DNA from: Shouchella patagoniensis
GTDB lineage: Bacteria; Bacillota; Bacilli; Bacillales; Bacillaceae_D
NCBI RefSeq assembly: GCF_002019705.1
Contig: NZ_KV917377.1
Span: forward strand, 3,160,565 to 3,224,564
Direction: 5' to 3'
DNA length: 64,000 nucleotides
The translations under genes were made by a program, and so were the position numbers. Shown here in pieces: positions 27,509 to 36,627 of the stretch. Below the pieces are notes generated by a model, which did not search any database, was not told the DNA's origin, and was given only the letters and a program-made list of their open reading frames with translations. Within the stretch, counting starts at the first letter, position 1; each line of letters begins with the position of its first letter.

Positions 27509-28195
27509 ATGAGTGAGGAGATGATGCATATGAGCAATGAAAGATGGAAGTCGGTTGACGAATACTTAGGAGAGCGGTTGCATGAGAAAGATATGATACT
27601 AGAATCGGTGCTTGCAAATAATCGTAAAAATGATTTGCCAACGATTGATGTGTCCCGTACGCAAGGAGAATTCTTGCGCTTGCTTGTGACCATGACAGGT
27701 GCAAAAAGAATACTAGAAATTGGAACACTAGGAGGCTATAGCACGATTTGCATGGCTAAAGCTTTACCGGAAGATGGTAAAATCATCACATTAGAAGCAA
27801 ATTCAAACCACGCCGCCTGCGCGAGTGAAAACATTAGAAATGCTCGTTTTGAAGATCGGATTAACATTCGAGTAGGAGACGCACTTATGACGCTACCTGA
27901 ACTAGAGAACGAGCAGGAATCTTTTGATTTCATCTTTATTGACGCTGACAAGCCAAACAACCCTCATTACTTAGAATGGGCGTTAAAGCTTGCGCAGCCG
28001 GGTGCAACGATTTTAGCTGATAATGTCGTTAGAGCTGGTGAAGTCATTAATGATCATAGTACCGACCCAAGGGTGCATGGAATCCGAACATTTCTTGACC
28101 AACTTGCCAATGAGGAACGAATCGATTCAACGGCAATTCAAACAGTTGGAGAAAAAGGCTATGATGGGTTTGTTATTGGAGTGGTTAAAAGATAG
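27509..28195 (+). CDS. SAM-dependent O-methyltransferase (class I, catechol-OMT-like)
   Basis: 228 residues with the S-adenosylmethionine motif LEIGTLGGYST at 69-79 and the metal/substrate region FIFIDADKPNN near 145-155, typical of bacterial divalent-metal O-methyltransferases (COG4122). Several ATGs compete: 27509, 27521 and 27530. AAGGAG sits 3 bases before the first, and GAGGAG fits the third, which would start MSNERWKSVDEYL. It is followed by a strong terminator and is likely regulated by the divergent LysR protein. Confidence 0.88.
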   Translation: MSEEMMHMSNERWKSVDEYLGERLHEKDMILESVLANNRKNDLPTIDVSRTQGEFLRLLVTMTGAKRILEIGTLGGYSTICMAKALPEDGKIITLEANSNHAACASENIRNARFEDRINIRVGDALMTLPELENEQESFDFIFIDADKPNNPHYLEWALKLAQPGATILADNVVRAGEVINDHSTDPRVHGIRTFLDQLANEERIDSTAIQTVGEKGYDGFVIGVVKR

Positions 28196-28197
28196 AA

Positions 28198-28225
28198 AAA
28201 ACGCATCCCTTCAAGGATGCGTTTT
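28198..28225. terminator. Bidirectional terminator between the methyltransferase and the AimR/AimP locus
   Basis: AAAACGCATCC (28198-28208) pairs perfectly with GGATGCGTTTT (28215-28225) around CTTCAA. The plus strand continues TTTT-AATC and the minus strand reads GCGTTTTTTC, so it can stop transcripts from both sides. On the minus strand it would end any transcript reading out of the peptide gene. Confidence 0.85.
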
Positions 28226-28273
28226 AATCTTAGAAAAGACAGAGTCTCTTTTGCTAAGTGATTGGTGTATTTA

Positions 28274-28306
28274 ATTATACATTAATTGAACTGGTGTTTT
28301 AGTCAA
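28274..28306 (-). promoter_or_regulatory. Promoter-like elements and inverted repeat downstream of the peptide gene
   Basis: On the minus strand, TTGACT (complement of 28301-28306) is followed after 21 bases by TATAAT (complement of 28274-28279). The spacing is longer than the ideal 17, as in some activator-dependent promoters. The plus-strand sequence TTGAACT (28286-28292), 8 bases, AGTCAA (28301-28306) forms an imperfect inverted repeat over the -35 box. In phage arbitrium loci the receptor acts just downstream of the peptide gene, so the position is suggestive; the function here is inference. Confidence 0.35.
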
Positions 28307-28318
28307 CCTTTGATGTTA

Positions 28319-28441
28319 TTAAGTACCAACATGAACAGGCGGGCCAGATAAATGTGAAACTCCAGAGTCCGTTTGGGAGACCATTGTTACGGGACTAAGA
28401 ATCAAAGCTAATACAATACATGTTTTCATAATGTTTTTCAT
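28319..28441 (-). CDS. AimP-like secreted signalling pro-peptide
   Basis: A 40-codon frame. MKNIMK, then a hydrophobic stretch (TCIVLALILSPVTM) forms a secretion signal, and a polar segment ends in SGPPVHVGT followed by two stops. AAGGGG lies 8 bases before the ATG. It begins 60 bases after the AimR-like receptor gene on the same strand. This is the layout of arbitrium aimR-aimP pairs, where the C-terminal hexapeptide is released outside the cell, re-imported and bound by AimR (known from phi3T/SPbeta). By analogy the mature signal could be PVHVGT. The gene is far below usual length cut-offs and would be missed in most annotations. Confidence 0.72.
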   Translation of the reverse strand: MKNIMKTCIVLALILSPVTMVSQTDSGVSHLSGPPVHVGT

Positions 28442-28501
28442 ATTGAACACCCCTTCTTATAGAATAAATTAATATCTCTTTGAAATAGCGGGTAATTATA
28501 T

Positions 28502-29611
28502 TTAAATTGATGCACCTGTTTTTTGTAAGGAGATAATATCTTGTTGAACAACTGGTATCATATCCGCTCTGCCGTATATAGAAAAATTACTAATTGCTTG
28601 TGTAAGCAATTCCAAATCTTTTGTAGCTTTTCCTTTGTAATATAGCAAGAAAAGACTATCGTTTTCTTCTTTTTCTAGTTGAGTTATTAATTTTAATGCT
28701 TGTGCTATATCATTTCGTACAATATATTGATGGATTTGCTCTTTTACAGGTATGTCAATTGAAAGTTCAAAAGTCTCACCATATAGATTTTTAATAAAAG
28801 GTACTTGCTCTTGTTCTAATGTCTTCTTGTAGTCAGATAACGCTGCTTGATTTGCATACTTAATTGCTTCTTTAGTATATTCTAAACACGTTTTTTTGTC
28901 TCCGATTAATTTCGTATTGCTCAAAGCATGGTAACAGGAGGCGCGAACTGTGTCTGGAGTGGCTTCATTGACATTTACAGCAAAAAAGTAATCTTCCGCT
29001 GAGTTTACATCCCCCTCTCCGTATAATTTCCCCAATCCAATTAATAGTGATATACGAGAAGCTAAAGCACTTTTCATATAACCAGGTTTAATATTGGCAA
29101 AACTATTACGCATTTTTTCTGCTAAGAAAAGTACATTTCGTACACTACCCATTTTAAAATAAGTTGTTAATTCGATAATTTCCAACCTCATACGAGCAAG
29201 TGGATTTTGAACCTCGCTATATAAGTTTTTTGCCTTATCCAATGTTTCTTGTAATGTATACGTGTGTGAAATTGTTTCAAAAATCAATTGATAAACCAAG
29301 ATCCATTCTCTCAATAAGTCATCTGTTCCATGTTTATCTAAGAGACCTTGTAAAATTTCTTTCTGTTCATGAATTGAAGCGTATTCAAACGCATCACGCA
29401 CATCGTGAAGTTTATTGACATGCAACGCATATGTGTTCATAACAGGCACAGTTTTTTCAGGGGCGATGTTTTTCACAAGTAACATGAATTGTTCAAAATC
29501 ATACAAGGATTCACGTGCAATTTCTTTTAGATGATCAGGTTTAAATAGCTCCGATTTGTTCCAAGATTTCTGGACAAGTAATTTATTAAGTTCTTTTTCA
29601 GGATTAAACAT
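28502..29611 (-). CDS. AimR-family (arbitrium-type) peptide-responsive regulator
   Basis: 369 residues, almost all helical. The pattern resembles phage SPbeta AimR: an N-terminal FEQFMLLVKNIAP segment, then a DAFEYASIHEQ helix, TPR-like repeats, and a C-terminal capping region (KEQIHQYIVRNDIAQAL, LFLLYYKGKATKDLELL). The N-terminal DNA-binding part before residue ~35 is short and no clear helix-turn-helix is evident. It does not fit Rap proteins. ATG at 29611 follows GGAGAGG; a TTG six codons earlier lies in that ribosome site. The secreted peptide gene follows it. There are no phage genes nearby, so it may control host genes. Homology is judged by eye. Confidence 0.75.
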   Translation of the reverse strand: MFNPEKELNKLLVQKSWNKSELFKPDHLKEIARESLYDFEQFMLLVKNIAPEKTVPVMNTYALHVNKLHDVRDAFEYASIHEQKEILQGLLDKHGTDDLLREWILVYQLIFETISHTYTLQETLDKAKNLYSEVQNPLARMRLEIIELTTYFKMGSVRNVLFLAEKMRNSFANIKPGYMKSALASRISLLIGLGKLYGEGDVNSAEDYFFAVNVNEATPDTVRASCYHALSNTKLIGDKKTCLEYTKEAIKYANQAALSDYKKTLEQEQVPFIKNLYGETFELSIDIPVKEQIHQYIVRNDIAQALKLITQLEKEENDSLFLLYYKGKATKDLELLTQAISNFSIYGRADMIPVVQQDIISLQKTGASI

Positions 29612-29631
29612 CGATCCAACCCTCTCCAAAT

Positions 29632-29648
29632 TTATCTATTATAGATAA
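29632..29648. promoter_or_regulatory. Inverted repeat over the receptor promoter
   Basis: TTATCTA (29632-29638), 3 bases, TAGATAA (29642-29648) is a perfect inverted repeat 21 bases before the receptor ATG. On the minus strand it covers a TATAAT box whose -35 region (TTTATT, 17 bases upstream) is weak. It could be an autoregulatory site. No other gene lies between here and 30005. Confidence 0.4.
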
Positions 29649-29828
29649 GTATATAACGTAAATAAAGAAAATTGAGTGAATATCCATATTTCCCAACATG
29701 ACAGCCAACTTTTTTGAATTTAGATTAGCGCTCATCATTCACCATGGATTCATTCTCTCCTATTTTTATTAAAAAATAAAGTTCTAATAAATTTAGTGAT
29801 TTCAATGAAAGATTAGGAATTAGTGGAC

Positions 29829-29925
29829 GGCATACATGTAGACTCCTGCGGGAGAAAAGACGAAGATGAGAATAACAGCATAGCTGTGAGGCTCATCCGT
29901 CGCCCGCGGAAAGCGGAGTGTATGC
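29829..29925. repeat. ~97-base imperfect hairpin, probable dispersed intergenic repeat
   Basis: Nested complementary blocks run the full length: CGGCATACA...ACTCC at the left against GGAGTGTATGCCG at the right; CTGCGGG against CCCGCGG; GACG..GATGAG against CTCATCCGTC; and ACAGC-ATA-GCTGT at the tip. It is GC-rich compared with its AT-rich flanks. Similar CTCCTGCGGG...GCCCGCGGAAAGCGGAG elements are common between genes of alkaliphilic Bacillus species (recollection). Small frames on both strands are artefacts of its symmetry. Confidence 0.65.
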
Positions 29926-30005
29926 CGGGAGCGAGGACAAGCGCAAAAGCCATCGTCTATGCGCTCATAAGTAAAAGGTTTTTCGAAGGTCTCAGGAATG
30001 ATCAT

Positions 30006-31346
30006 TTAAAATAATAAGAAGGCGATTGGTGTAACTAAAATGAATGTAAGGACAACTCTTATAAACCAAATAATGACCATTTTACCGATGCTAAGCTTAA
30101 TTTCAGTGGCAAGAATACAAGGAATAACAGCAGAGAAAAACAGGACAGAGGAAACGGACATCACGGCAATAATAAAACGGGTGATGATGTCTGCTTCGAC
30201 AACGAGTAAAGCTGGTAAGAAGATTTCAGAAATTGAAATGGCAGCAGCTTTTGCGGCGAGCATTGGGTCAGGCAATTGTAAGAGTGCAGTGATTGGATAA
30301 AATACATACCCGGCATAGTCAAATACTGGTGTGAATGTAGCAAGAACAAGACCAAGCAAGCCAATCGACATGATTGTCGGTAGGATACTCATCGTCATTA
30401 ACAACCCATCTTTTAAACTTTTAGTGGCTTCTTTAACGAAAGAACTGCTTGTAGCAGCTGTTTCAATTCCTTCGCTCCAGCCCTTTTTTATTCTTGTTGA
30501 AAACCCTAGTTTTTTAAGTTCTTCTGTTTGATGCGTTGCACCTGGATAATAGTCATCCTTCATTGAACAAAGAGGCCACATTCGGGCAGTAATAGCTGTT
30601 ACAGCAAAGGTAACGGAGAATGAAACAATAAAGTAAATTGTCCAGACTGACATCAAGTCAAGTGTATTTGCAATTACGACCATAAAAGTAACTGATACGG
30701 TTGAAAAGCCTGTGGCAATAATAGCCGCGTCTCGGAAAGAATAAATGCCTTGTTTATACAAGGAATTGGTTACAAGTAAACCAACGGAATAGCTTCCTGC
30801 AAAAGATGCTATAGCGTCAAGGGAAGAGCGTCCTGGTGTTCTGAAAATGGGTCTCATAATTGGTTCCATTATATTGCCGAGAAATTCAAGCAACCCATAG
30901 CCAATTAAAACAGTAAGAAAGATTGCACCAATTGGAACGAGGAGACTAACTGGTGTAATTAAGGAATTAATTAAAAAAGGACCCATATCAGGAGCGAAGA
31001 GCCAGGTTGGTCCGATACCGAATAGAATAAGGGCGCCAATTATAAAACCAAGTATTTTAAAAATAGATAAGACAAAATTGGTAGCTGATTTATTCCATTT
31101 CTTTGTATAAAACGGATGAATGGCTCCAAGTAAAAGGATGATAAAAATGTATACGGTAACAGCCGTACTTGCTTGGCGTAAAAATGTGACTAAATGGTCG
31201 AGGGGAATAGAGCTCTTTTCAGCAATTGTAATAGGGACAAAAAACATAAAAATGCCAAGTAAACTAAAAAAGATAAACTTAGCAATTGCCCATGGCGAGC
31301 GAGTTTTGTCTTGTTCATTCTGTGAGTGTACGTCTGGTTGGTTCAT
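30006..31346 (-). CDS. YjiH-family transporter-like membrane protein (nucleoside-recognition GATE domain)
   Basis: 446 residues with about ten membrane segments. Two Gate-like regions are visible: GYGLLEFLGNIMEPIMRPIF with SSLDAIASFAGSYSVG, and a second near the C-terminus (AAKAAAISISEIFLPALLVV). The pattern matches YjiH/YuiF-type proteins, whose substrates are poorly known. It is divergent from hutI, so it may import histidine, urocanate or a related imidazole. That assignment is by context only. Confidence 0.75.
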   Translation of the reverse strand: MNQPDVHSQNEQDKTRSPWAIAKFIFFSLLGIFMFFVPITIAEKSSIPLDHLVTFLRQASTAVTVYIFIILLLGAIHPFYTKKWNKSATNFVLSIFKILGFIIGALILFGIGPTWLFAPDMGPFLINSLITPVSLLVPIGAIFLTVLIGYGLLEFLGNIMEPIMRPIFRTPGRSSLDAIASFAGSYSVGLLVTNSLYKQGIYSFRDAAIIATGFSTVSVTFMVVIANTLDLMSVWTIYFIVSFSVTFAVTAITARMWPLCSMKDDYYPGATHQTEELKKLGFSTRIKKGWSEGIETAATSSSFVKEATKSLKDGLLMTMSILPTIMSIGLLGLVLATFTPVFDYAGYVFYPITALLQLPDPMLAAKAAAISISEIFLPALLVVEADIITRFIIAVMSVSSVLFFSAVIPCILATEIKLSIGKMVIIWFIRVVLTFILVTPIAFLLF

Positions 31347-32865: not shown

Positions 32866-33241
32866 AATAGTAGAATATCTACCTTTATTAAAGAACGATC
32901 CAGCAAATCATTAAATCTATTCCTATATGAATTTCAAGGAATTCAATTCATGCTCGCCGAAATGATTATAGATGTCAAACTAGTGAGAACAAATACGGAA
33001 TTTACCATATGTCTAAAAGATATAAAAGCTAGCGCTTGCTACTAGAAGCTTTTACGGAATATGCTATTTGATTTTTAGGTGTTAAATTGAGTTTTTCAAA
33101 AAGCGATCTGGTGCATATCTGATTGAACGAATCGATTGGAATCAGTGTTTTCTTAAAATTTATGAAGACCAAACGCGCAAAAGATTGTCATTGTTTAAGC
33201 AATGCTAAGATCGATAAAACATGTCCAGGAGGGATAAGGTT
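32866..33241 (+). other. Non-coding spacer between hutI and hutU
   Basis: No gene is seen. It contains an imperfect hairpin, AAAAGCT (33024-33030) with AGCTTTT (33047-33053), and inside it TAGC-GCTT-GCTA. This could end the hutI transcript or act as an attenuator. AGGAGGG at about 33228 is the ribosome site of hutU. No recognisable HutP-type site or cre was found. Confidence 0.4.
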
Positions 33242-34909
33242 ATGACGAATCAATTAAATCAGCGTGTTATTCGAGCGGAACGTGGTAAAGATCTTACATG
33301 TAAAGGATGGGAACAGGAAGCTGCCTTACGTATGTTAATGAATAATCTTGACCCGGAAGTGGCGGAGAATCCTGATGAGCTTGTTGTTTATGGTGGAATT
33401 GGAAAAGCCGTACGGAATTGGGAGTGCTTTGATGCGATTGTGGCATCGCTGAAAGATTTAGAGAATGATGAAACGTTACTTGTGCAATCTGGCAAGCCTG
33501 TGGGTATTTTTCGTACTCAAGAAGCAGCGCCTCGCGTTCTAATTGCTAATTCAAATCTTGTACCTGCTTGGGCGAATTGGAAACACTTTTATGAGCTTGA
33601 AGACAAAGGCTTAATGATGTACGGACAGATGACAGCGGGGAGCTGGATTTATATTGGTGCTCAAGGAATTTTACAAGGAACTTACTTAAGCTTCATTGAA
33701 GCTGCAAAAAAGGCGTTCGGACGACCAGATTTAACGGGTAAATTTATTCTGACTGGCGGCATGGGTGGAATGAGCGGTGCCCAACCATTAGCAGGTAAAA
33801 TGGCAAAAGGCGTTATTCTTGTTGTTGAAGTTGAAAAAAGCAGGATCGAACGAAAGATTAAAGAAGGATATTGCGATTATTTAGCCGAGGATCTAGACGA
33901 AGCGCTCAAGATGGTTGAAGAGTTCACAAAGCAAGGCACTCCAGCATCGATTGGTCTTGTTGGCAATTGTGCCGATGTACTGCCGGAACTTGTACAGCGC
34001 GGAATCACGCCAGATATCGTAACCGATCAAACAAGTGCCCATGATCCAGTGAATGGGTATGTGCCGAATGGAATGAGCTTAGATGAGGCATACGCCCTTA
34101 GAAAATCAGATGTAAAGTCTTACGAACAAAAAGCCATTGCGGCAATGGGTGCCCATGTTCAAGCGATGCTGGATCTTCAGAAAGCAGGGGCGGAAACGTT
34201 TGATTATGGCAATAATATTCGCGCTTATGCCAAACAAGCTGGTGTACAAAACGCATTTGATTTTCCTGGATTTGTTCCGGCGTACATCCGTCCACTTTTT
34301 TGCGAAGGAAAAGGGCCTTTTCGCTGGGCAGCTTTATCTGGTAACCCAGAAGATATTTATAAAACAGATCAAGTGGCGATGGAAATGTTTAAAGAAGATG
34401 AAGCGCTTGTTAATTGGATTGAAATGGCACAGAAGATGGTTAAATGGCAAGGTCTTCCGGCGAGAATTTGTTGGCTTGGATATGGTGATCGGGACCGATT
34501 TGCTTTGAAAATTAATGAAATGGTTGCAACTGGTGAACTGGAAGCACCGATTGTTTTTGGACGTGATCACCTTGATTGTGGCTCGGTCGCATCACCAAAC
34601 CGTGAAACTGAATCTATGAAAGACGGTAGTGATGCAGTTGCCGATTGGCCAATTCTTAATGCCCTTGTTAATACAGCAGGTGGTGCAAGTTGGGTTAGTG
34701 TTCATCAAGGAGGTGGCGTTGGCATGGGGTACTCATTGCATGCAGGACAAGTCATTGTTGCGGATGGCAGTGAAGCAGCGAAAGAACGAATTGAACGTGT
34801 GCTCGTGTCAGATCCAGGGATGGGCATTGTGCGCCATGCAGATGCTGGTTACAGCAAAGCGATAAAAGTGGCTCAAGAAAAAAATGTCCATATTCCGATG
34901 CAGGAATAA
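33242..34909 (+). CDS. hutU: Urocanate hydratase
   Basis: 555 residues. It hydrates urocanate to 4-imidazolone-5-propionate using tightly bound NAD+ as an electrophile. The active-site cysteine is Cys410 in the signature QGLPARICW, the same number as in P. putida urocanase. The NAD region ([12 protein letters not shown] near 178-190) and the invariant [16 protein letters not shown] segment are intact. The ATG at 33242 lies 8 bases after AGGAGG; an upstream ATG at 33221 would place the ribosome site inside the gene. This is the canonical copy of two. Confidence 0.95.
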
Positions 34910-34980
34910 TGAAAAGAGAGGGACCACTTGGCTCCTCTCTTTCATCGATTTTTATTAGGTGTTGCAAGGAGTTGGATAAG

Positions 34981-36627
34981 ATGGATGTGCAAGCATTGCG
35001 TTCTCCTATAGGAACGGAGAAAACGTGTAAGACTTGGGAAATTGAAGCGTTAAAGCGACTGTTATTAAACTGCTTAGACCCCCATTTAGCACAGGATAGT
35101 GAACAGATGATTGTGTATGGAGGAACGGGAAAAGCAGTGAGGAATAAATCTGCGTTTCAAGCAATCATAAAGGAATTGGAAACATTAGCTGGTGATGAGA
35201 CACTACTTATTCAATCAGGTAAGCCAGTTGGTAAGTTTCGTACCTTTGCTAGTTTCCCACGTATTGTTGCATCTAGTTCTATGCTCGTCCCAACAGCCGC
35301 CAACTGGGAGACGTTTAATGAATTGGAATTAAAGGGGTTGACAAGTTATGGTCAATCAACAGCTGCTGCTTGGGCTTATATTGGTGTGCAAGGTATTTTG
35401 CAAACGACGTTTGAGACGATGGGAGAAATCGCAGAGCGGCATTTTTGTGGAAAGTTAAATGGGCGGATTGTCTTAACGTCCGGGCTGGGCGCAATGGGAG
35501 CAGCCCAGCCATTATCTGTCACAATGCATGGCGGTGTAGCAGTTGTTGTCGAAGCGGACAAACAAAAAATAACAAAATCAATTTTAAATAATTACTGCGA
35601 TGTTGTCGCGGAGTCTCTTTGTGAAGCAATTGATTTAGCGGAGGAAGCGGCGAAGAAAGAACAGCCTTTGTCAATCGCTTTGCATGGTCATGCAGGTGAT
35701 GTTTACATGGAGTGCGTGAAGAGAGTGTGGATTCCTGATATCGTTACGGATCAGACCGCCGCTCATGACTTATTAAATGGCTACATCCCATCAGGGTTAA
35801 GTATCAAACAAGCGAATCATATTCGAACTAAAAAACCAAAGGACTATTTATCTCTTGCTGGTGTTTCTGTGGTGGCACAAGTGCGGGCAATGAGGTTATT
35901 GCAGCAAGCTGGCGGTGTTGTCTTTGAATATGGAAATAACTTACGCTGGCAAGCCGAACAATATGGAAGCAAAGATGCTAGACTCTTACCTGGCTTTACT
36001 GCGGAATACATTCGACCGCTTTATAGTGAAGGGAGAGGACCTTGTCGTTGGATTGCTTTATCAGGCAATCCGGAAGATATTTATAAAATTGATGAATACA
36101 TTCTTAGCTACTTTCAAGCAGATAAACGTGTATGTCGCTGGATCGAGTGTGTTCAAGAAAGCATCCACTTTAATGGATTACCGGCAAGAGCATGTTGGTT
36201 AAATTATGAGGAACGTGCTTTGCTTGCTGAAGCTGTTAATCAAATGGTCGCAGTAGGTGTTTTGGAAGCACCAATCGCTTTCACAAGAGATCATTCTGAA
36301 GGTAGTTCGATGGCTGCACCAACACGAGAAACAGAAGCAATGAAAGATGGTAGTGGCGCTGTTGCCGATTGGCCGATTTTAAATGCGCTACTGAATGCAA
36401 GTAGTGGGGCTTCAATGGTTAGTGTTCAACATGGTGGGGGTGTTGGCATTGGTCATTCCATTCATTCGGGGATGACTGCTGTGGCAGATGGAACATTCTC
36501 TGCTTCAAAACGACTGGAACATGTCATGAACGCAGACGCGGGTTTAAATGTTATTCGTCACGCCGATGCAGGGTATGAGAGTGCGAAGCGGTCAGTTAGG
36601 GCGTTTGGTCTAAAAAAGCCACTTTAA
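34981..36627 (+). CDS. Diverged urocanate hydratase paralog (possible thiourocanate hydratase)
   Basis: 548 residues, clearly homologous over its whole length to the preceding hutU. It retains the active-site cysteine (Cys405 in NGLPARACW) and an NAD region (SGLGAMGAAQP). However, the segment that is [16 protein letters not shown] in hutU is RDHSEGSSMAAPTRET here, a change next to the substrate-binding part of the fold. This suggests a different substrate. Urocanase homologs that hydrate thiourocanate are known in ergothioneine breakdown. ATG at 34981 follows AAGGAG by 9 bases. Gene begins 71 bases after hutU. Confidence 0.85.
   Translation: MDVQALRSPIGTEKTCKTWEIEALKRLLLNCLDPHLAQDSEQMIVYGGTGKAVRNKSAFQAIIKELETLAGDETLLIQSGKPVGKFRTFASFPRIVASSSMLVPTAANWETFNELELKGLTSYGQSTAAAWAYIGVQGILQTTFETMGEIAERHFCGKLNGRIVLTSGLGAMGAAQPLSVTMHGGVAVVVEADKQKITKSILNNYCDVVAESLCEAIDLAEEAAKKEQPLSIALHGHAGDVYMECVKRVWIPDIVTDQTAAHDLLNGYIPSGLSIKQANHIRTKKPKDYLSLAGVSVVAQVRAMRLLQQAGGVVFEYGNNLRWQAEQYGSKDARLLPGFTAEYIRPLYSEGRGPCRWIALSGNPEDIYKIDEYILSYFQADKRVCRWIECVQESIHFNGLPARACWLNYEERALLAEAVNQMVAVGVLEAPIAFTRDHSEGSSMAAPTRETEAMKDGSGAVADWPILNALLNASSGASMVSVQHGGGVGIGHSIHSGMTAVADGTFSASKRLEHVMNADAGLNVIRHADAGYESAKRSVRAFGLKKPL

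Follow-up and report, generated by a model that had tools for sequence, protein, structure and literature searches.

A chromosomal receptor–propeptide pair of the AimR lineage in Shouchella patagoniensis, with a probable quorum-sensing function and a likely eroded DNA-binding domain

The locus studied here is best read as a quorum-sensing pair of the RRNPPA type, encoded on the chromosome and belonging to the AimR lineage, whose receptor would act by contact with a partner protein in the manner of Rap, and to this reading as a whole we assign a probability of about 0.6. It was examined in a 64,000-nucleotide stretch of Shouchella patagoniensis DNA (the window), which lies within a 4.63-Mb contig of a 4.65-Mb genome. 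That receptor and propeptide form a functional quorum-sensing pair is highly probable. Partner contact, the most likely output because the N-terminal domain is without a canonical HTH, is our best guess and is somewhat favoured. Although the pair is of the AimR lineage and works in the manner of RRNPPA pairs, it is not arbitrium in the strict sense.

Curated family models and the predicted fold both place the receptor in the AimR family. It scores 126.4 bits with the NCBIfam AimR model NF038310 (curated cut-off 70) and 102.4 bits with Pfam PF22871 (curated cut-off 26.7); the NF038310 match covers model positions 37-350, and that of the host's third copy (L033/L090) covers 1-365. An alternative in-frame TTG start at 29629 would give a receptor of 375 aa. 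In the AlphaFold2 model, which was built from an alignment of 23 sequences and has a pLDDT of 92.7, the receptor matches 16 PDB chains at E <= 0.001, every one of them AimR, with the first Rap at 7.3e-3, and in VIA-align its Z lies at 28.8-32.0 with AimR entries and at 20.6 with the best Rap. Profile searches, unlike phmmer with the single receptor sequence, which gave no match in PDB, also reached the AimR entries. Identity as a Rap or a generic TPR protein is ruled out by the AimR model scores and the structure matches. The first-pass annotation had described a helical receptor resembling SPbeta AimR, and had proposed HMM comparison with Rap and unrelated TPR proteins as well as structure prediction; its description is borne out by NF038310, PF22871 and the predicted fold, since the curated AimR models are passed with Rap scoring no better and the fold lies nearer to AimR crystals than to Rap. 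In the nearest relative, Bacillus sp. JCM 19041, which groups with the host genus, the receptor orthologue (locus L034) is 72% identical and has the same neighbours.

Table 1. Features of the receptor–propeptide locus, in window coordinates, and of the fused receptors of S. lonarensis, in coordinates of their own loci
Feature	Position	Strand	Remarks
AimR-lineage peptide receptor	28502..29611	minus	369 aa from ATG; NF038310, PF22871, model matching AimR crystals
Sensing (TPR) part	28502..29410	minus	Cassette-like divergence from the JCM 19041 orthologue
N-terminal domain, residues 1-49, HTH likely eroded	29465..29611	minus	Helix 2 a turn; 6-residue deletion relative to SPbeta AimR
Propeptide gene, 40 codons	28319..28441	minus	Signal-peptide-like first half, ribosome site
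Ribosome-binding site AAGGGG of propeptide gene	about 28450..28455	minus	Read from sequence
Last eight codons GPPVHVGT, presumed signal	28322..28345	minus	3 synonymous, 0 replacement changes against second propeptide of L034
Terminator-like hairpin	28198..28225	minus	Symmetric; may serve the convergent methyltransferase gene too
Fused receptors, S. lonarensis (G007)	L057:6760-8175, L063:7567-9018, L056:6911-8290		

The HTH has likely been lost from the N-terminus of the receptor. Pfam HTH families matched none of 31 N-termini of its clade (31 of 39 tree rows, three of them, L041, L045 and L058, shortened by start-codon choice), and among the HTH-type paralogues grouping with it (10 of 13 rows), HTH_3 was found in 5/10 N-termini and HTH_26 in 5/10. 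HTH_3 was found in just 6/20 other full-length receptors, so that the Pfam models have low sensitivity for HTHs of the AimR type, and a warning to the same effect is given in PMC10075063; in the group of receptors of about 340 aa, HTH_3 was found in 0/17. By hhalign, the N-terminal regions of the clade align with those of the HTH-type rows (probability 97, E 8e-11) in an alignment that extends into the first TPR helices and has a 5-residue gap at helix 2. Aligned with SPbeta AimR, in which N30 and N32 are reported to contact bases (PMC6458997, PMC6536502), the receptor is shorter at helix 2 and sets K24/D26 opposite N30/N32, and in its model helices 4-15 and 25-33 have just a single helical turn, at 19-21, between them. 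An AlphaFold2 control on SPbeta AimR was poor (pLDDT 42.5) and is no proof, with a helix at 17-25 in its secondary structure; because of this, the loss of helix 2 rests on the alignments and one model. The poor control, together with true HTHs being missed by Pfam profiles, is why the HTH loss is graded as likely, short of proven.

The alternative that survives best, although we consider it improbable, is that the receptor is still an arbitrium-type DNA-binding factor, whose shortened N-terminal domain would bind an operator that escapes recognition, for instance within the 120 conserved bp past the propeptide, and drive a short AimX-like RNA. It is favoured by the match to NF038310, which is an equivalog model, by the alignment of the N-terminal region with HTH-type relatives, and by the interval between propeptide and terminator, which is conserved, carries TATAAT in both the window and L034, and has two hairpins. 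Against it stand the clade's N-termini, with no HTH match and a deletion at helix 2, and the operator searches: exact SPbeta or phi3T boxes were absent from the 64-kb window, and perfect 6-bp inverted pairs with a 22-28 bp spacer were absent on either side in the window and in L034 (chance expectation 0.27 and 0.78). Arbitrium operators consist of inverted 6-bp boxes close to aimP with a spacer of about 25 bp. Across loci, a perfect inverted pair was found at 11/13 HTH-type loci of the Shouchella group (6.0 expected), 11/12 other HTH-type loci (6.1) and 18/33 loci of the receptor's clade (12.9), counts that are suggestive only as an operator sign and do not discriminate. Promoter-like sites are not above chance (7, with 8.4 in shuffles), and Rfam gave no match at its gathering score; on these grounds an AimX-like short RNA past the propeptide was rejected as a candidate. 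Terminator-like sites number 2 in the region, with 1.1 in shuffles.

The stretch 28198-28318 that follows the propeptide, conserved with L034, holding TATAAT and folding into two hairpins, is possibly a short RNA, or merely a 3′ end with its terminator. With the HTH, the mark of AimR as a DNA-binding regulator, undetectable and no AimR-type operator found, the receptor is without support as part of a working SPbeta-type arbitrium, the known kind of system with which the first-pass annotation had compared it.

The locus looks chromosomal and non-phage. Downstream and convergent are a methyltransferase-like gene (27509-28195), a LysR-type regulator and a glucanase-like protein; upstream, a membrane protein (30006-31346), named YjiH in the first-pass annotation, adjoins hutI and hutU. 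The metabolic flanks are thus as first described. PHROG matches at 1e-5 were obtained for 4/10 nearby proteins, three of unknown function and one ‘methyltransferase’, and the structural, packaging, lysis and integration categories had none among these ten. The earlier statement that the 64 kb hold no phage genes thus stands for phage-type functions among the ten neighbours compared with PHROG, and for the remainder of the window it is a judgement from reading the ORF list alone. The receptor had no match at 1e-5 to phages and plasmids, and a scan of viral contigs for its exact peptide patterns, which detects close relatives only, gave none. Upstream of the receptor gene, an interspersed repeat of about 137 bp (29824-29960) has eight genomic matches at 1e-3, counting itself, and a 91% identical copy upstream of the L034 receptor. 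The adjacent genes 33221-34909 and 34909-36627 each score as urocanate hydratase hutU, and are 98% and 50% identical, respectively, to the hutU-like protein of JCM 19041.

AimR relatives are numerous in the genus. The host genome has three AimR-family genes, and relatives at 1e-5 were found in 18/60 searched genomes (host included) and in all 12 other genomes of the host genus, with 1 to 16 matches each. AimR-model matches were present in 20/41 genomes of the family and 80/397 sampled genomes of the order (host included), and a pattern scan of the species-genome collection with the clade alignment gave 24 loci, all from Shouchella or Bacillus sp. JCM 19041. A quick tree was made of 125 receptors from 115 fetched stretches, which cover part of the AimR-model matches in the order; the set includes some near-identical copies, and receptors below 50 bits or without a start were left out of it. 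In the tree, our receptor falls into a 39-row single-genus clade (SH-aLRT 100) that groups with copies still carrying the HTH, and the host's third copy falls into a separate clade of 11 rows from the same genus. The receptor thus is one of a chromosomal family present in many copies within the genus, and not the relic of a single captured prophage. For this reason ‘domesticated’, as the first-pass annotation put it, is too narrow, and its stand-alone chromosomal module stands.

A prophage or conjugative element that once bore an arbitrium module and is now in decay is a very unlikely source of the locus. In the same genome, another AimR copy has replication-relaxation, FtsK/SpoIIIE and XRE genes as neighbours, which does indicate that elements with AimR enter the genus; however, our receptor is in a different, single-genus clade, its neighbours are kept in JCM 19041, both frames are open with selection on the peptide tail, and mobile-type genes are absent among the ten neighbours. 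That third copy of the host (L033, G000:C1:1414000-1430000) has a propeptide with two GPxNPVD units. An FtsK-type neighbour is common to five loci of the 11-row clade (L033, L050, L051, L068 and L069), and L069 adjoins a T4SS-pilin-like gene that scores just below its cut-off; these copies therefore probably sit in conjugative elements, and the L033 element is probably controlled by an arbitrium-type switch. Elsewhere in the order, a separate clade of 33 rows is made up of AimR relatives of about 340 aa without HTH (L155-L198), several of which have propeptides of the DPGxPGxG type, and hence HTH loss has probably occurred more than once in the AimR lineage.

The small ORF is a genuine propeptide, not a chance frame. 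Its description in the first-pass annotation is confirmed: the ATG lies exactly 60 nt past the receptor stop on the same strand, a first half of K plus hydrophobic residues follows the ribosome site, and the tail is SGPPVHVGT. A propeptide rule (28-75 codons, ribosome site, hydrophobic stretch, positive start, within 260 nt downstream of the receptor) found such an ORF at 67/125 AimR-family receptors, and at 0/125 on the opposite strand and 1/125 upstream as controls; the rule misses candidates visible by eye at L036, L037, L038 and L040. In the 2.6-Mb genome of S. lonarensis (G007), which has 16 AimR-family matches, the rule gave a propeptide for 12/16, with L062 doubtful. Repeat units occur in related propeptides, GPNQPII or GPTQPII three times in all at L050 and GHNVPG twice at L055. 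The frame and its C-terminus, whose conservation the first-pass annotation had proposed to check, are kept in JCM 19041, where L034 has two tandem propeptides with tails FGNPPVNVGS and FGGPPVHVGT. Relative to the second L034 propeptide, every one of codons 27-32 is replaced, whereas codons 33-40 have no replacement; this codon pattern is the informative part, dN/dS over the whole propeptide (0.17/0.34) being weak evidence. As judged from codon conservation, the mature signal is more likely the C-terminal octapeptide than the hexapeptide first expected. Finally, a chance origin of the small ORF, with the receptor eavesdropping on peptides of other systems as proposed in PMC9765709 for most non-prophage AimRs, can be dismissed as very improbable: almost 90% of chromosomal non-prophage AimR systems lack a recognised propeptide in that paper, 58/125 receptors lack one by our rule, and so does L035, a more distant relative (49%, one neighbour gene in common), but the propeptide counts against controls, the conserved octapeptide codons and the tandem second propeptide in the closest relative contradict it.

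In our model of a pair that signals by partner contact, the 40-aa propeptide would leave the cell via Sec and be processed into a C-terminal peptide of about 8 residues, GPPVHVGT, which would accumulate and come back through an oligopeptide permease. The peptide would then bind the TPR superhelix of the receptor and alter the state of the N-terminal output domain, and this HTH-derived domain would contact a partner protein instead of an operator. Sensing domain and propeptide may recombine as one unit while the N-terminal domain stays, which would give different signal types at one locus.

Comparisons of close loci are consistent with such exchange. Third-position mismatches between our receptor and L034 come to 7/67 through codon 67 and 177/302 beyond, those between L036 and L038 are 1/76 then 180/284, and those between L047 and L049 are 0/54 then 198/315, so that at three loci they jump after codon 54-76 of the receptor. 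With 200 permutations per pair, the observed statistic was never reached for these three pairs (LLR 28.5-57.6). The pairs L036/L037, L041/L043 and L072/L075 have no break, and weak breaks were seen for L032/L045 (LLR 5.2, reached in 9/200 permutations) and L038/L040 (LLR 9.3, reached in 0/200, mismatches 0/155 and 16/205). Per 100 nt, L047 and L049 are 95-100% identical on both sides and 46-63% identical over nt 200-1300, which hold sensing domain and propeptide; L036 and L038 are 99-100% identical just before and after and 16-61% identical over nt 300-1500, with upstream similarity extending about 146 nt only. Within both pairs the propeptide tails are different save for a short G-rich motif. 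At the L047/L049 site, S. tritolerans (L083) and S. clausii (L084) have only a receptor remnant with a frame of about 103 codons.

At our locus the exchange appears milder: L034 has an extra propeptide, yet one of the two keeps the GPPVHVGT tail. Seven flanking orthologues differ from those of L034 by 0.21-0.48 synonymous differences per site, a comparison that left out the second hutU-like gene as a paralogue (0.76), and past receptor codon 90 the 30-codon windows reach about 0.6-1.3, which is saturated; in the first 24 propeptide codons a single difference at 16 sites gives 0.06. From these sequence comparisons, we read signal-type cassettes as replaced by recombination with the N-terminal domain kept, and our locus as a mosaic, in which the low divergence of codons 1-67 may only mark a recombination end. 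The same peptide tail here and in L034, despite differing sensing domains, counts against this reading. A similar split between a conserved N-terminus and a variable sensing part is described for SPbeta-group AimRs (PMC9232636). For Rap, PMC5199041 reports propeptide duplication and found no recombination between Rap homologues; by analogy, the two L034 propeptides resemble the duplication step of its model.

Three S. lonarensis members of the receptor's clade (471, 483 and 459 aa) run into a C-terminal LuxR-type HTH. PF00196, with a cut-off of 23.5 bits, scored 44.2 and 53.8 in the two fusions scanned, the third aligns with them, and a fourth AimR-family frame of 250 aa appears to bear a LuxR-type domain; none of the three fusion loci has a propeptide by the rule. 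These fusions suggest that AimRs without HTH have on occasion acquired a new DNA-binding domain at the opposite, C-terminal end. A search for the source of the fused GerE domain pointed to no particular partner: beyond copies in AimR-family frames, its matches were response-regulator-like proteins of 209-210 aa. Action of the remaining HTH-less receptors through LuxR-type regulators fits the fusions, which are consistent with it and no proof. More tentatively, and against the odds in our estimate, the Shouchella AimR lineage may have converged independently on a Rap-like mode, with loss of the HTH, cassettes of TPR and pheromone, and output via LuxR/NarL-type regulators.

Compared with arbitrium AimR–AimP of SPbeta and phi3T, our pair shares the receptor family (NF038310/PF22871), the all-helical TPR fold, the receptor–propeptide order, a Sec-like propeptide with a C-terminal signal (secretion being predicted here), and the conserved N-terminus with a variable sensing part (PMC9232636). 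It differs in being chromosomal without phage-type neighbours, in its likely eroded HTH, in the AimR-type operator not found and AimX not recognisable at its locus, and in the tail GPPVHVGT, whereas arbitrium has xxxRGA-type hexapeptides. Rap–Phr likewise combines a TPR receptor without HTH and a secreted C-terminal peptide, and has propeptide duplication as in L034 (PMC5199041); however, our receptor model is nearer to AimR (Z 32.0) than to the best Rap (20.6), and the intragenic exchange seen here contrasts with PMC5199041, which reports no recombination between Rap homologues. AloR–AloP of Paenibacillaceae is similar in having many chromosomal receptor–propeptide pairs per genome (PMC7425212) and in belonging together with AimR to the nine-TPR clan C (PMC12700828), and differs in the N-terminal HTH of Alo receptors (PMC7425212) and in host family.

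AimR genes outside prophages are reported in PMC9765709, and in the sequence tree of PMC12700828 the chromosomal RRNPP systems of ‘Alkalihalobacilli’ (subfamily 21 of this FoldTree paper) branch within AimR. Because such chromosomal AimR-like systems are already in print, the kind of system is known. Subfamily 21 is, by description, likewise chromosomal, AimR-like and from related hosts, and on this comparison is likely the same as the receptor's clade; HTH erosion and cassette exchange are not described for it in the accessible sections of PMC12700828. In the open-licence literature, with supplements outside the search, we found no paper on these Shouchella loci. The accessible sections of that literature describe neither HTH erosion nor cassette exchange for chromosomal AimRs, and a search of open-licence papers for AimR with LuxR or GerE had no AimR among the matches listed.

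Our results link the signalling by which phages choose between lysis and lysogeny to a bacterial system. Within a single genus, receptors of the AimR lineage make up an expanded family of chromosomal signalling proteins, with up to 16 matches in a 2.6-Mb genome, and the cassette exchanges are natural swap experiments, in which sensing is set apart from output. If the HTH loss is real, signalling by an arbitrium receptor without HTH would be directly testable. How a DNA-binding receptor turns into one that targets proteins, a shift that PMC12700828 places at the founding of Rap, could then be studied in intermediates.
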